DNA of 64,000 nt from Streptomyces sp. CC53. Its GTDB lineage: Bacteria > Actinomycetota > Actinomycetes > Streptomycetales > Streptomycetaceae. The notes beneath the pieces are model-generated. The model saw only the letters and a list, made by a program, of their open reading frames with translations, did not search any database and was not told where the DNA came from. Positions 1,633-39,284 of this stretch are shown one piece after another (position 1 is the stretch's first letter; each line of letters opens with the position of its first letter). Location of the stretch: NCBI RefSeq assembly GCF_001865245.1, contig NZ_MKXB01000151.1, forward strand, positions 108,809 through 172,808, written 5' to 3'. A program made the translations under genes and the position numbers.

Positions 1633-3720
1633 ATGGACGCCTTCCCCTGGGGCATCGGCGTGCTCATCGCCGCTGTCCTGCTGATCACCGCCACGGTGCT
1701 CCTCGTCGTCACGAAGCTCTTCCGCAAGGTGGAGCAGGGCAAGGCGCTCATCGTGTCGAAGATGCGCAAGATCGACGTGACGTTCACCGGGCAGGTCGTC
1801 CTGCCGGTGCTGCACCGCGCCGAGGTCATGGACATCTCGGTGAAGACCATCGAGATAGCCCGCACCGGCCGCGACGGCCTGATCTGCCGGGACAACATCC
1901 GCGCCGACATCCGCATCTCGTTCTTCGTGCGGGTCAGCAAGACCGCCGAGGACGTCATCAGGGTCGCGCAGGCCATCGGCACGGCCCGGGCCAGCGACAA
2001 GGCCACGTTGCAGGAGCTGTTCAACGCCAAGTTCTCCGAGGCGCTGAAGACCGTCGGCAAGCAGATGGACTTCACCGACCTCTACACCAAGCGCGAGGAA
2101 CTGCGGTACCGGATCATCGAGGTCATCGGCGTCGACCTCAACGGCTACCACCTTGAGGACGCCGCGATCGACTACCTGGAGCAGACCCCGCTCAGCCAGC
2201 TCGACGCAAACAACATCCTGGACGCCCAGGGCATCCGCAAGATCACCGAGCTGACCGCCATCGAGCACATCCGCACCAACGAGACCCGCCAGCACGAGCA
2301 GAAGGAGATCACCCGCCAGAACGTCGACGCCCGCGAGGCCATCCTGGAGCTGGAGCGCCGCGAGGCGGACGCCGAGATCAAGCAGCGGCGGGAGATCGAG
2401 ACGGTGCGGGCCCGCGAGGAGGCGGAGACCGCGCGGGTCGTGGAGGAGGAGCGGCTGCGGGCGCAGAGCGCCTTCCTGCGCACCGAGGAGCAGCTCGGCG
2501 TCCAGCGGGAGAACCAGGCGCGCGAGGTGGCGGTCGCGGAGAAGAACCGCGAGCGGGTCATCGCGATCGAGGACGAGCGGATCGAGAAGGACCGCCAGCT
2601 GGAGGCCATCGCCCGGGAGCGGGAGACGATGCTGACCCGGATCGCCGCCGAGCGCGAGGTGGAGGCGGAGCGCCGCGACATCGCGGAGGTGATCCGCGAG
2701 CGGGTCGCCGTGGACCGCACGGTCGCCGAGCAGGAGGAGTCCATCAAGCGGCTGCGGGCCGTCGAGGAGGCCGAGCGGGAGCGCCAGGCCGTCGTCATCG
2801 CGGCCGAGGCGGAGGCACAGGAGCGGCTCGTCAAGGACATCAAGGCGGCGGAGGCCGCCGAGCAGGCGGCCGTGCACCGGGCCGCGGAGGAGCTGACCCT
2901 GGCGGAGGCCCGGCTGAAGGCCGCCGACCTGGACGCGCAGGCCAAGCTGCGGCTCGCCGAGGGCGTCAAGGCCGAGCAGGCCGCCGAGGGCCTGGCCGCC
3001 GTGCGGGTGCGGGACGCGGAGGCGGACGTCATCGGGAAGGCCGGCCGGGCGGAGGCCGAGGCCACCGAGGCCCGGCTCAAGGCGGAGGCCGAGGGCGCGC
3101 GGACCCTGGCCCTGGCGGAGGCGGAGGGCCGGCGGGCGCAGGCGCTCGCCGAGGCCGAGGCGGTCGCGGAGCGGCTGAAGGCGGAGGCCCGGGGCATCCA
3201 CGAGAAGGCCGCCGCGATGGCCGCCCTCGACGAGGCGTCGCGCGGGCACGAGGAGTACCGCCTGCGCCTGGAGGCGGAGAAGGACGTGCGGCTCGCGGGC
3301 CTCGACGCCCAGCGGCAGATCGCCGAGGCGCAGGCCACGGTGCTCGCGACCGGTCTGGAGAAGGCCGACATCAGCATCGTCGGCGGGGAGTCCGCGTTCT
3401 TCGACCGGATCGTCGGGGCGATGTCGCTCGGCAGGAGCGTGGACGGGTTCATGGACCAGTCGAAGACCGCGCAGGCACTGGCCGGGCCGTGGCTGGACGG
3501 GTCGGCGAGCTTCACCGAGGACCTGACGAAGGTGCTGGGCTCGCTGTCGACGGCCGACGTGCAGAACATGACCGTGTCGGCGCTGCTGATGAAGCTGATG
3601 GGACCTGCGGGCGGCGGGCAGGCCGGCCCCGAGCTGCGGAAGCTGCTCGACGCCGCCGAGCGGCTGGGGCTGTCCGAGACGCCGCTGACCGCACTGAACG
3701 GTACGCCCGCCGCCGCCTGA
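1633..3720 (+). CDS. flotillin family protein (YqiK-like, SPFH domain)
   Basis: A 695-residue flotillin. Residues 5-28 form one membrane anchor. An SPFH/band-7 domain covers about 30-200 (EQGKALIVSKMRKIDVTFTGQ, then the VKTIEIARTGRDGL region). A very long charged helical region rich in Glu, Ala and Arg spans about 215-590. A C-terminal domain of about 100 residues contains SIVGGESAFFDRIVGAMSLG. This is the canonical order for flotillins, which oligomerise at the membrane and organise lipid microdomains. The start ATG has AAGGA seven bases upstream. The gene follows a YqiJ/NfeD-like partner, and a giant ATPase follows after a hairpin. The coiled-coil part is longer than in many Gram-positive flotillins and resembles E. 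coli YqiK. Confidence 0.92.
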   Translation: MDAFPWGIGVLIAAVLLITATVLLVVTKLFRKVEQGKALIVSKMRKIDVTFTGQVVLPVLHRAEVMDISVKTIEIARTGRDGLICRDNIRADIRISFFVRVSKTAEDVIRVAQAIGTARASDKATLQELFNAKFSEALKTVGKQMDFTDLYTKREELRYRIIEVIGVDLNGYHLEDAAIDYLEQTPLSQLDANNILDAQGIRKITELTAIEHIRTNETRQHEQKEITRQNVDAREAILELERREADAEIKQRREIETVRAREEAETARVVEEERLRAQSAFLRTEEQLGVQRENQAREVAVAEKNRERVIAIEDERIEKDRQLEAIARERETMLTRIAAEREVEAERRDIAEVIRERVAVDRTVAEQEESIKRLRAVEEAERERQAVVIAAEAEAQERLVKDIKAAEAAEQAAVHRAAEELTLAEARLKAADLDAQAKLRLAEGVKAEQAAEGLAAVRVRDAEADVIGKAGRAEAEATEARLKAEAEGARTLALAEAEGRRAQALAEAEAVAERLKAEARGIHEKAAAMAALDEASRGHEEYRLRLEAEKDVRLAGLDAQRQIAEAQATVLATGLEKADISIVGGESAFFDRIVGAMSLGRSVDGFMDQSKTAQALAGPWLDGSASFTEDLTKVLGSLSTADVQNMTVSALLMKLMGPAGGGQAGPELRKLLDAAERLGLSETPLTALNGTPAAA

Positions 3721-3742
3721 CGGCGGATCACGCAGGCGTACG

Positions 3743-3782
3743 GGCCCGGAGCTGCCGTCACGGGGGGCAGCAGCTCCGGGCC
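3743..3782 (+). terminator. hairpin between flotillin and ATPase genes
   Basis: The arms GGCCCGGAGCTGC (3743-3755) and GCAGCTCCGGGCC (3770-3782) are perfectly complementary over 13 bp around a 14-base loop, and GTTT follows. It could terminate flotillin transcription or attenuate it so that less message reaches the ATPase gene at 3811. No separate promoter was evident, so partial read-through is my preferred reading. Confidence 0.6.
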
Positions 3783-3810
3783 GTTTCATCGATGAGGGGA
3801 ACCCGCGAGG

Positions 3811-6800
3811 ATGAGCACGCAGACCGGCACCGCCGCCCCGGGCGACGCACGCACCGCGCCCGGCACACGCACCGCAGCCGACGCACGTACCGCAGCCGCG
3901 GTGGGCGCCCCGGCCGGCACGCGTACCCCCTCCGACCCCGGCGACGGCCCCGGTGCCCCGGGCGGCCCGCGCGCCGGGATCGACGCCACCGCCTACGACG
4001 TGCTGCGCGGCCGCCTCGCCGCACAGGGGGCCGAGCTCGCGCGCCGGGCCGAGGAGCTCAACGCCCGGCGCGTGGCGGTCTTCGGGTCGGGTGAGCTGCG
4101 GCTCGCCGGGACGGAGCGGCTGCCCACCGCGGCCCCCGCGGTGGCACGGGACGTGGTCGCCGTCGGCGACGCCCTGCTGTTCGGCTACACCGGCCGCCCC
4201 GCCGCGCAGGAGGTCGAGGTCGGCGACGTCTTCTCGCTGCACGCCCGCGACGGACTGGCCGCTCTGCCGTACGACGCCCGGCCCGGACTGCTGGACGACC
4301 CCGCGTTCGTCCGGGAGTTCCAGGGGCTGCACCGCTACTACCGGGGCGCGCGGCTGCTGCGCCTGCGCGTCACGGACGGCAGGCTGCTCGCGGTCTTCCG
4401 GACCGGCGACACCGCCGCCGACATCCGCGTACTGCGCTGGCGGCTGCACGCCGACGGGGGCGTGGAGTTCCTCGACGCGCGGGGCGAACGCGACCACGTC
4501 CTGCCGGCCGCGCAGGACGTGGCGTGGACCGCGGCGACCCGCGAGGACCACAGGACCGTCGACGGCACGCCGTACGTACGGGTCCCCGGCGACGTGGAGC
4601 TGCTCGTCGGGACGACGGGCGGCACGCTCACGGTGCGGGCCGACGGCGCCGAGCCCTACACGGAGCCGGTCGCCGAGCCGCTCCAGTCGCTCGCGGACGC
4701 CGACATCGCCTACGCGCGCGTGGGCACCCTCGTCCTGCTCAAGGTGCGGCCGTACAAGGAGGACGCCGACCGGTACCTGGTGTGCCACGTCCCGAGCCGG
4801 GGGGTGGTCAGGCTCGACGGGATCGGCAGCGCCTGCCGCCGCCTGCCGGGCGACCAGGGCGTCGTCTTCCCCGGCGGCTACTGCCTGGCGACCGGCGCCC
4901 ACAAGGTCTTCGACCTCGACACGGACGGGCTGGAGTTCGAGCGGGCCGCCGCCTCCCCCAACGGCGAGGACGTGCTGTACGCCTTCCACGCGCGCGAAGG
5001 GGGCCGCACGCTGCTGCTGCCGTACAACCGGGTCCGCGCGTCCGTCGCCACACCGGTCACCGGGCGGGGGTACGCGCTGTTCGACGACGGCACCCTCCAC
5101 GTCCTGCGGTCCACGGCCGACGGCGACCACGCGCGCGTGCACCCGCTCCAGGTCTGGGACACCCCGTTCTTCTCCGACACCCACGCGGCCGCGCGGCCCG
5201 TCGGCGGCGGCCGGCTGGAGCAGATCGGCAACCCGGACCTTGTGCGGGGCGTGTCCGACTGCCTGAACCTCGCCACGACCGCCACCGCCGTGTCGTCGGG
5301 GCCCGCGACGGCCCAGGCGTACGAGGAGCTGCTCGCCGGCTGCGCGCGGGCCCTCGACGCCCACCACTGGCTGGACGACCCGGAGGTCGGCGGCGGCGTG
5401 CCGGAGCCGCTCGCGGGCGTGCGGGAGACCGCCGCGCAGGTGCTCGCGGAGCTCGCGACCGTACGGGACCTGAAGCGGCAGGCGGCGGAGGCACTGGAGG
5501 CCACCGCCGCCCGGGTCGCCACGCTGGTGCGGCGCACCCGCGGCGAGACCCCGCGCACGGCACCCGAGTGGGTGGAGCGGCTCACCGCACTGCGGCGCGC
5601 ACAGGGGAGGCTGACGACTCTGAAGGAGATGCGGTACGCCGACACGGACCGCATCGACTCCCTCGCCGCGGACGTGGAAGGCAACCTCGCGGCCTTCGGC
5701 GGGCGGGCGGTGGAGTTCCTGTCCCGGGACGACGCCTTCACGTCGTACGACGAGGAGGTGGAGCGGCTCACCGCCCAGGCGGAGGGCATCGCCACGGCAG
5801 CCGAGGCCGGGCCGCCGGCCGGGCGGATCGACGCGCAGGCCGACGGGCTGCGCGCGGTCACGGAGGTCGTGACCGGCCTCGACATCGGCGACGCGACGCT
5901 GCGGACCGCCATCCTGGAGCGGATCTCCGCCGTGCTGGGCGGGATCAACCGGGCCCGGGCGACCCTCGACGCGCGCCGCAGGGAGCTGGCGGCGGGTGAG
6001 TCGCGGGCCGAGTTCGCCGCGGAGACGGCACTGCTCGGACAGGCCGTCACGGGCGCGCTCGCGGCCGCGGACACCCCGGAGGCGTGCGACGAGCAGCTCG
6101 CCGCACTGCTGCTGCGGCTGGAGGGCCTTGAGGCCCGCTTCGGGGAGTCCGACGAGGCCCTCGCCTCGGTGGCCGCCAGACGCGACGAGGTGTACGAAGC
6201 GTTCGCGTCCCGGAAGCAGGCGCTCCAGGACGAGCGGGCGCGGCACGCGGAACGGCTCGCGTCGTCGGCGGGACGCGTCCTGGAGACGGTGGCGCGGCGC
6301 ATCACGTCGCTCGCCGACGCGGACGCGCTGCACACGTTCTTCGCGTCGGACCCGCTGGTGGCGAAGGTGCGCAGGTCCGCGCAGGAGCTGCGGGCGCTGG
6401 GCGAGACGGCGCGGGCGACGGAGCTGGAGGGCCGGATCACGGCCGCCCGGCAGGAGGCCGCGCGGGCGTTGCGGGACCGCGCGGACCTGTACGCGGACGG
6501 CGGGACGGCGATCCGGCTCGGCCGGCACCGGTTCCCGGTGAACACCCGGCCGCTGGACCTGACGCTGGTGCCGCACGGCGAGGACGCGCTGGCGTTCGCG
6601 GTGACCGGCACCGACTACCGGGCCCCGGTCGAGGACGAGGCGTTCGCCGCGACCCGCGCCTTCTGGGGGCAGAGCCTGCCGTCCGAGGACGCGGAGGTGT
6701 ACCGCGGCGAGTTCCTGGCGGTGCGGCTGCTCGCGGAGCACGGCCCGCAGGCCCTCGCGGACGCGGAGGACCTGCCCGCCCTCGTACGGGAGGCGGCCAG

Positions 6801-37011: not shown

Positions 37012-37881
37012 TTGAGACCGGTAGAGTCCGAGTGGGGAGCGGAAATTGCGGGTCGCGAGAACAAGGAAAATGCCACCCCGACAGCCAGGCTCGTCGCGCA
37101 CATGACGCGCGAATTGCGCAAGCGGAAGGGCCTCACGCAGGAAGAGCTGGGCGAGCTGATCGGCTACTCCGGCGCGGCCGTCAGCGGCGTGGAGACCTGC
37201 GCCCAGCCCGCGAGCGACCAGATGCTCGTCAAGCTGGAGCAGTCCATCGGCGGCGGCATGGGCTTCTTCGAGGAGGCGCGGGTGCCGATGCGGGTGGAGA
37301 AGTACCCGCAGCAGTTCAAGAAGTACGCCCTGCTGGAGCGCGAGGCGGTGAGCCTGCACCTCTTCGCGACGCCGGTGATCCACGGGCTGTTCCAGACGGA
37401 GGAGTACGCGCGGGCGCTGATCCGGGGCAGCTTCCCCATCGTCTCCGAGGAGCGCGTGGAAGAGCTGGTGGATGCCAGGATGGCCCGGAAGGAGATCTTC
37501 GACCGCGATCCGGTCGCCCACATCGAGCTGGTGCTGGATGAGGCGGCCCTCCACCGCTCCATCGGCAGCCAGGAGTCCATGCGGGGGCAGTTGCAGCACC
37601 TCGCGGCGTATGCCCGGAAGCGAAACGTAACGATCCAAGTACTGCCCCTGGACTGCGGGCTGCACGGCGAGTACGCAGGAGACCGAGGCCAGCTCAACGT
37701 CCTGGAGACCCCGGAGCACCAGCACGTGGTGTACCTGGAGCCCCAGGACGAGAGCCTCCTGATCAGCGACCCGGCGAAGGTGAGCACGTACATGCAGCGG
37801 TATGCGAGGATCCGGTCACAGGCCCTGGATCCGAGGGAATCGCTGGGTCTCATCGAGCGGTTGGCAGGAGATCAGCCATGA
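37012..37881 (+). CDS. XRE family regulator with DUF5753 domain
   Basis: A 289-residue protein. Residues 26-80 form a helix-turn-helix (ELRKRKGLTQEELGELIGYS, then GAAVSGVETCAQPASDQMLV). Residues 95-285 form the DUF5753 domain (PQQFKKYALLEREAVSLHLF and PVIHGLFQTEEYARALI). This is the WhiJ/Scr1 type of Streptomyces regulator, which normally pairs with a small DUF397 protein, present here with a four-base overlap. Pairs of this kind are reported to influence development and antibiotic production and to behave somewhat like toxin-antitoxin modules. TTG 37012 is the only workable upstream start and has a weak Shine-Dalgarno sequence. Confidence 0.9.
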   Translation: MRPVESEWGAEIAGRENKENATPTARLVAHMTRELRKRKGLTQEELGELIGYSGAAVSGVETCAQPASDQMLVKLEQSIGGGMGFFEEARVPMRVEKYPQQFKKYALLEREAVSLHLFATPVIHGLFQTEEYARALIRGSFPIVSEERVEELVDARMARKEIFDRDPVAHIELVLDEAALHRSIGSQESMRGQLQHLAAYARKRNVTIQVLPLDCGLHGEYAGDRGQLNVLETPEHQHVVYLEPQDESLLISDPAKVSTYMQRYARIRSQALDPRESLGLIERLAGDQP

Positions 37882-38180
37882 GCAGCACCCTCCAGTGGTT
37901 CAAGTCGAGCTACAGCAGCGGCAGCGGCGGCGACTGCGTCGAAGTGGCCTTCGACTGGCGCACGTCGTCGTACAGCAGTGGCAGCGGCGGCAACTGCGTG
38001 GAAGTCGCCGCCCCCTGGCGCACGTCGACCCGCAGCAGTGACAGCGGCGGCGAGTGCGTCGAGGTCGCTGCCTGCGCGGATGCCGTGCACGTGCGGGACT
38101 CCAAGAACCCTGACGGCGGGACGTTCGCCGTCGCCCCGTCGGCCTGGGTGGCGTTCCTCGCGGGCGCCACGGGTTCTTGA
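37878..38180 (+). CDS. DUF397 protein with triplicated N-terminal motif
   Basis: A 100-residue protein. The normal DUF397 unit, W-x-K-S-S-Y-S-S-x-x-G-G-x-C-V-E-V-A, occurs three times with a strict period of 20 residues: 7-24, 27-44 and 47-64. It is followed by the usual single C-terminal part (VHVRDSKNPDGGTFAV and SAWVAFLAGA). Ordinary family members are about 60-70 residues with one unit. ATG 37878 overlaps the XRE stop, and GGCAGGAG precedes it. It is the presumed partner of the XRE-DUF5753 regulator. Confidence 0.92.
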   Translation: MSSTLQWFKSSYSSGSGGDCVEVAFDWRTSSYSSGSGGNCVEVAAPWRTSTRSSDSGGECVEVAACADAVHVRDSKNPDGGTFAVAPSAWVAFLAGATGS

Positions 38181-38407
38181 GAACCGTCATCGCCGGGCAG
38201 CTCGTGGAGCTGCCCGGCACCATCGCCGCCATCCGCGCCGCGCTGGACGAGGACCGGGCGAAGGCGTTCGACGCGGAGATCCCCCATGTCCCGGTCGCCG
38301 AGCTGCCGTTGACGCTGGCCCGGTGGGCGCTGTCGACGACGGACGCGGACGCGGAGGACGCGGAGCTGTTCGCGCGCCTGGCGCGCGGCGAGGACGTCGG
38401 CGCGTGA
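38177..38407 (+). CDS. small acidic protein, possible antitoxin
   Basis: A 76-residue protein starting at TTG 38177, which overlaps the DUF397 stop. It is acidic and helical (TIAAIRAALDEDRAKAFDAE, then LPLTLARWALSTTDADAEDA). Its size, charge and the four-base overlap with the next gene fit an antitoxin preceding a toxin. No DNA-binding motif is visible, and I recognise no named family. The antitoxin role is inference from context. Confidence 0.65.
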   Translation: MRTVIAGQLVELPGTIAAIRAALDEDRAKAFDAEIPHVPVAELPLTLARWALSTTDADAEDAELFARLARGEDVGA

Positions 38408-38652
38408 CCGGGTACCGCCTCCAGTACGCACCTCCCGCGGACCTGGCCCTGGACTCGATGGAGGCGCAGCTGCGCGCCCGCTTCGACGCGGGGATGCTCG
38501 CGTGGCTGGCGCCCGACCCGTACGGGCACGGCTCCGCGCCGATAGACCGCGACGAGGACCGCCGCGAGGCCACCGTGTCGGGCGTGGTGATCCGCTACTA
38601 CGTCAGCCGCAGCGTCTCGACCGTCACCGTCGTGCGCCTGGTCTTCGTCTGA
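38404..38652 (+). CDS. small protein resembling RelE/ParE-type toxins
   Basis: An 82-residue protein from GTG 38404 (GTGA overlap). The order of elements resembles RelE/ParE toxins: an N-terminal strand YRLQYAPPADLAL followed by helices, a DPYGHGS loop in the middle, and C-terminal strands REATVSGVVIRYYV and STVTVVRLVFV. Typical members end with a basic catalytic or gyrase-binding residue, and this one ends with hydrophobic residues. The similarity is judged by eye only. Confidence 0.6.
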   Translation: MTGYRLQYAPPADLALDSMEAQLRARFDAGMLAWLAPDPYGHGSAPIDRDEDRREATVSGVVIRYYVSRSVSTVTVVRLVFV

Positions 38653-38981: not shown

Positions 38982-39284
38982 ATGAGCATGATCCAGTCCG
39001 GCAAGGTGACCCTGCGCTCCGACCACGCCACCGAGACGACGGGCGGCCGCACCAGCACGTTCACCCGGATCGACTTCCCGACGCCCTTCCCGCAGGGCGC
39101 GGACGTCGTCGTGCAGACCACCGTGCAGACGTTCAACGGGCCGGAGACGCCGGGCGTGCGACTGCACCACGTGGACAGGACCGGGTTCCTCATCCGCATG
39201 AACGAGCTGTACAGCGCCCGCACCGGCGCGAGCGACGGCAAGCACGTGGACGAGGTCATCGGCTGGACCGCCTACACCGTCTGA
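38982..39284 (+). CDS. H-type lectin domain protein
   Basis: A 100-residue protein made almost entirely of one H-type lectin domain: FTRIDFPTPFPQGADVVVQT, then TPGVRLHHVDRTGFLIRMNEL, and the terminal DEVIGWTAYTV. These are the strands of the discoidin/Helix pomatia agglutinin six-strand fold, which normally binds GalNAc-type sugars as a trimer. There is no signal peptide, so export, if any, is by another route. The upstream AGTAGGGAGACAG provides a Shine-Dalgarno sequence. It stands alone between intergenic gaps. Confidence 0.8.
   Translation: MSMIQSGKVTLRSDHATETTGGRTSTFTRIDFPTPFPQGADVVVQTTVQTFNGPETPGVRLHHVDRTGFLIRMNELYSARTGASDGKHVDEVIGWTAYTV

Follow-up and report, generated by a model that had tools for sequence, protein, structure and literature searches.

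An XRE/DUF397 regulator pair joined by four-base overlaps to a putative DUF6247-like antitoxin and RelE/ParE-fold toxin in one Streptomyces clade

The window, a stretch of 64,000 nucleotides from Streptomyces sp. CC53, contains four genes on the forward strand, each overlapping the next. The first two encode an XRE-DUF5753 regulator and a DUF397 protein, and the last two encode a putative antitoxin and a putative toxin. The features of the locus were as follows:

37034..37039, + strand: GGGGAG ribosome-binding site of the XRE gene, a few bases 5' of the conserved start codon in the alignment with relatives
37045..37881, + strand: XRE-DUF5753 regulator gene (gene 1); Pfam HTH_31 and DUF5753 (E 1e-48); start codon from the alignment
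37878..38180, + strand: DUF397 gene (gene 2), with the first half of the domain three times in tandem; Pfam DUF397 in three stretches (E 9e-36)
38177..38180, + strand: TTGA junction of the DUF397 stop and the antitoxin start, without a ribosome-binding site ahead; identical in five genomes
38177..38407, + strand: putative antitoxin gene (gene 3), DUF6247-like, 76 aa, pI 4.4; upstream partner in 79 of 80 loci
38404..38652, + strand: putative toxin gene (gene 4), predicted RelE/ParE fold, 82 aa; AlphaFold2 (pLDDT 91), Foldseek, and VIA

The three four-base overlaps that had been read from the sequence alone were borne out at exact positions, namely ATGA (37878-37881), TTGA (38177-38180), and GTGA (38404-38407). 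They are not due to chance: of 79 related pairs (from the best 80 of 125 gene-4 relatives), 78 have the antitoxin/toxin overlap as well, and all four other genomes with the cassette share an identical TTGA junction. The overlapping four-gene chain is real; its component modules belong to known types, and what is unusual is the junction alone.

The XRE protein exceeded the Pfam cut-offs for HTH_31 (32.4 bits) and DUF5753 (165.9 bits), and the DUF397 protein (122.4 bits) is encoded directly downstream with a four-base overlap. The domains named for these genes in the sequence-only reading were confirmed (HTH_31/HTH_3 and DUF5753, E 1e-48; DUF397, E 9e-36), and genes 1 and 2 are, judged by both their domains and their arrangement, an ordinary XRE-DUF5753/DUF397 pair. 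The XRE start codon proposed in the same reading, TTG at 37012, is doubtful, as relatives start at the equivalent of 37045 behind the GGGGAG ribosome-binding site, with ATG in Streptomyces sp. CC228A and TRM64462 and GTG in TRM49041. At this conserved position 3' of GGGGAG, the window has ATT (37045-37047), which may be a rare start, reflect a shift to TTG 37012, mark a weakened gene, or represent a sequencing error. The first half of the DUF397 domain (37878-38120) is present in three tandem copies in the window and CC228A and in two copies in the other relatives, among them orthologues that lack the toxin-antitoxin pair. The window genome has 32 DUF397 matches, and partial extra copies also occur in its other DUF397 genes.

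Single-sequence searches of both small proteins against Pfam, NCBIfam, PADLOC, and the PDB gave nothing useful above cut-off, and the window gene-4 protein did not match Pfam ParE_toxin above the curated cut-off. ParE_toxin was matched by 10 of 47 gene-4 relatives (best E 0.011). Profile searches, proposed with the sequence-only reading, yielded one weak PDB match for the small proteins, to Thermus RelE (E 0.5). A structure model of gene 4 was built with AlphaFold2 on the 47 aligned relatives; its pLDDT was 91, and it showed the beta-alpha-alpha-beta-beta-beta pattern of RelE/ParE. The top Foldseek matches of the model were Thermus RelE (E 3.8e-4) and E. coli ParE2. VIA-align placed it close to M. 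tuberculosis RelE2 (Z 13.1, 2.0 A over 81 residues) and RelE1 (Z 12.5), and its further matches were almost all RelE/ParE/YoeB/HigB toxins. The PDB matches were headed by RelE, ParE, YoeB, HigB, and YafQ toxins. The RelE/ParE-like strand pattern suspected for gene 4 thus reappears in the model, and the RelE/ParE toxin fold is assigned to gene 4 as a prediction of good confidence. In a profile comparison with E. coli RelE, only the N-terminal residues 4-36 could be aligned; by strand register, the strand-3 arginine and the C-terminal tail seem to be absent. In RelE, this tail bears catalytic residues.

Gene 3 had been described as having an acidic antitoxin look, and this description fits its pI of 4.4 (family median 4.6) and its position as the conserved partner 5' of the toxin gene. 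No match to RelB, ParD, or Phd was obtained for it. It scored 13.4 bits against DUF6247 (PF19760), under the 26.9-bit cut-off, and DUF6247 was matched by 33 of 46 gene-3 relatives (E up to 0.1, best E 1e-5). Behind genuine DUF6247 genes, an overlapping gene of approximately 86 codons came next in 21 of 30 loci, and the gene-4 profile weakly recognized 16 of these. The window antitoxin and its relatives form a diverged branch. A literature search found no paper naming DUF6247 or describing Streptomyces DUF6247 gene pairs. The gene-3 model, predicted singly as was that of gene 4, had a pLDDT of 83 with a beta hairpin and four helices; Foldseek recognized no fold for it in the PDB (best E 3.4), and such an absent match does not imply a new fold. 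Gene 3 is most likely the antitoxin of the gene-4 pair and is termed putative.

Gene-4 relatives were found in 108 of 296 genomes of the same genus, and a scan of the genomes of 84,980 species with two peptide patterns retrieved 125, the best 80 of which were nearly all from Streptomyces. No toxin relative was found in phage records. A gene-3 homologue lay directly 5' of gene 4 in 29 of 29 loci of the same-genus set and in 79 of the best 80 of 125 relatives. A conserved two-gene operon with the antitoxin first and tight coupling, as in type II toxin-antitoxin systems, is apparent from these comparisons. In four loci (L136, L153, L158, and L177), two successive antitoxin-like genes precede one toxin gene, and the window genome also carries a lone distant toxin paralogue (L107, C20:38999-39229, 28% identity) with no recognizable antitoxin 5' of it. 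For the antitoxin, dN/dS was 0.09-0.34, and for the toxin 0.12-0.25 (one near-identical pair set aside); these ratios indicate that purifying selection acts on both small genes, which are therefore maintained.

The pair seldom occurs beside the regulators. Besides the window, an XRE/DUF397 pair adjoining and co-directional with the antitoxin-toxin genes was present in only 4 of the best 80 of 125 loci, the other 76 being without one. XRE orthologues were found in 63 of 292 genomes of the genus. Comparison of the gene-4 match list with the XRE match list showed that 18 genomes carry both a close XRE orthologue and a clear gene-4 relative; within each of these genomes, the two were separated by at least 0.56 Mb or lay on separate contigs. 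A general four-gene system was rejected on both counts. The link between regulator and toxin drawn in the sequence-only reading therefore stands for the window genome, where the overlaps tie the genes together, but not in general; likewise, the small genes are conserved with the XRE/DUF397 pair within the five-genome clade and not across the genus. Another 11 of the best 80 of 125 loci had an XRE/DUF397 pair or an XRE gene within 5 kb in some other arrangement. These were not counted as evidence for a general association with the toxin family, because nine were upstream and divergent, mostly at what seems to be one common place, and XRE/DUF397 pairs are common, as the window genome illustrates. 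In eight loci (L127, L131, L147, L156, L159, L160, L166, and L190), XRE/DUF397 diverges from the antitoxin-toxin genes, at a distance of approximately 0.7 kb where read (L127 and L159); an apparent ATP-binding regulator gene lies between them, and its partial translation had no Pfam match.

The cassette also occurs in Streptomyces sp. CC228A, MUM 203J, TRM64462, and TRM49041, in each case in the neighborhood seen in the window. A scan of 393 genomes for the junction pattern found the window genome and only one other, whose antitoxin-toxin DNA equals that of TRM64462. Five syntenic regions that lack the small genes retain XRE/DUF397 together with several of its window neighbors, and other genes lie 3' of DUF397 there. 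By this synteny, XRE/DUF397 sits at its ancestral chromosomal site, and the simplest history is a single joining of the toxin-antitoxin pair to the 3' side of DUF397, which took place in the ancestor of the five Streptomyces genomes. Stand-alone antitoxin genes mostly have an ATG or GTG start codon and, 5' of it, a ribosome-binding site of the GAGGAG type. Where the pair is joined to DUF397, the start lies a few codons later in all five genomes, at a TTG within the conserved start region, without a GAGGAG-type site. Read against these stand-alone genes, the antitoxin lost both its original start codon and its ribosome-binding site in the join. The junction DNA, TTGAGAACCGTCATCGCCGGGCAG, was kept in all five joined genomes, and the toxin differs among them by up to 18%.

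At positions 3400-4540 of its locus (L116), MUM 203J has lost its XRE gene at a second junction except for the last 49 codons or so, and other genes replace it; DUF397, antitoxin, and toxin are still open behind the breakpoint. XRE is therefore not needed for keeping the toxin-antitoxin pair. The stretch behind the toxin is variable, because the small gene at 38982-39284 is present in MUM 203J and not in the CC228A locus; this gene has a weak match, below cut-off, to Gp53-like_C, a phage tail-fibre C-terminal domain. In four relatives, a methyltransferase gene of PrmC type lies close to the pair; it was set aside, as it is also present without the pair.

We consider it probable that two independent modules, the XRE/DUF397 regulators and a type II toxin-antitoxin pair, were joined such that the latter is expressed in a coupled manner from upstream. 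This explanation builds on the gene order, the overlaps, the predicted fold, the conserved pairing, the synteny, the lost start region, and the purifying selection. The acidic DUF6247-like antitoxin would bind and silence the small RelE/ParE-fold protein, whose toxicity and target are presumed. A single join in the five-genome ancestor would have placed the pair directly behind DUF397, removing the antitoxin's start and ribosome-binding site. As the TTG overlaps the DUF397 stop and lacks a ribosome-binding site, antitoxin translation very probably depends on ribosomes finishing DUF397; the antitoxin would be made solely when these restart at the TTG, and the toxin when ribosomes ending the antitoxin restart at the GTG, presumably on a shared transcript. 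With such restart coupling, the XRE/DUF397 promoter, together with upstream translation, would determine how much of the pair is made and when.

Alternatively, all four genes might work as one system, with XRE acting as a transcription regulator dedicated to the toxin-antitoxin pair in the way that PaaR serves PaaA-ParE; the need for it would arise because the antitoxin lacks a DNA-binding domain of its own. The antitoxin model matched no DNA-binding antitoxin fold in the PDB, the order of regulator, antitoxin, and toxin resembles paaR2-paaA2-parE2 (PMC8630535), whose ParE2 is among the fold matches of gene 4, and the cassette is kept in five genomes with identical junctions. Such a system is nevertheless quite unlikely given the 76 of the best 80 of 125 pair loci that lack adjoining co-directional XRE/DUF397, the intact DUF397-antitoxin-toxin genes of MUM 203J without most of XRE, and the XRE/DUF397 orthologues that occur without the pair. 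We give equally little credence to a capture of the toxin-antitoxin pair by an XRE-DUF397 operon of the developmental or antibiotic type, with DUF397 translation gating the antitoxin and XRE serving as its missing regulator. If it were true, the toxin would be released once DUF397 is no longer translated, and the cassette would be a regulator-gated toxin module selectively kept in one Streptomyces clade.

The gene-4 product might also have kept the RelE/ParE fold and lost its toxicity, the pair being a harmless passenger or having become a regulator. The pI of the window toxin (5.65 versus a family median of 9.3) fits this idea, as does the apparent lack of the C-terminal tail that bears catalytic residues in RelE, taking the length from the model and the residues as general background. 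It is unlikely in view of the purifying selection on both genes, the nine invariant columns across the 47 toxin-family sequences, and the nearly constant retention of the partner gene. An accidental junction without effect, with a promoter inside DUF397 driving antitoxin and toxin, would agree with joining as a single event and with stand-alone relatives equipped with an upstream region and a ribosome-binding site of their own; Streptomyces promoters are largely outside the coverage of the promoter/terminator scan. The join, however, cost the antitoxin its ribosome-binding site and start codon, and the exact overlap was retained across genomes despite the divergence of the toxin, which makes this reading rather improbable. 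The joining of two independent modules with coupled expression is preferred to these alternatives.

The cassette is a local new arrangement of known modules, confined to one clade. The DUF6247-like proteins of Streptomyces can be assigned a likely function, as antitoxins to a family of RelE/ParE-fold toxins that approximately one-third of the sampled Streptomyces genomes contain. The joined genomes offer a natural case of a pair that lost its own translation start and appears to have come to depend on an unrelated regulator operon, which makes the cassette a clean test case for toxin-antitoxin pairs passing under host control.

XRE/DUF397 pairs were formerly suggested to be toxin-antitoxin systems (PMC2701414). 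DUF397 proteins of S. coelicolor were non-toxic when over-expressed, and the S. coelicolor pairs did not behave as toxin-antitoxin systems but regulate differentiation and the production of antibiotics (PMC6262351, PMC10364602). Scr1/Scr2 (SCO4441/4442) of S. coelicolor share domains and order with genes 1 and 2, whereas the window adds an unrelated second pair without a gap and tandem copies of the DUF397 half-domain. The small genes resemble type II RelBE/ParDE systems in toxin fold, small size, acidic 5' antitoxin, and four-base overlap, as well as in irregular distribution and plasmid occurrence; they differ in the DUF6247-like antitoxin and in a toxin too distant for the Pfam ParE_toxin cut-off. 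In Streptomyces DUF6247 gene pairs, a small RelE/ParE-like gene likewise comes after the DUF6247 gene and overlaps it, whereas the window antitoxin has diverged below the Pfam cut-off. The nearest described arrangement of regulator, antitoxin, and ParE-fold toxin is paaR2-paaA2-parE2, and paaR-paaA-parE of E. coli O157:H7 places all three in one operon (PMC8630535). Antitoxin homology is no part of this likeness, and a DUF397 gene intervenes in the window. The paaR2-paaA2-parE2 regulator belongs to its system, whereas the window XRE does not travel with the pair.
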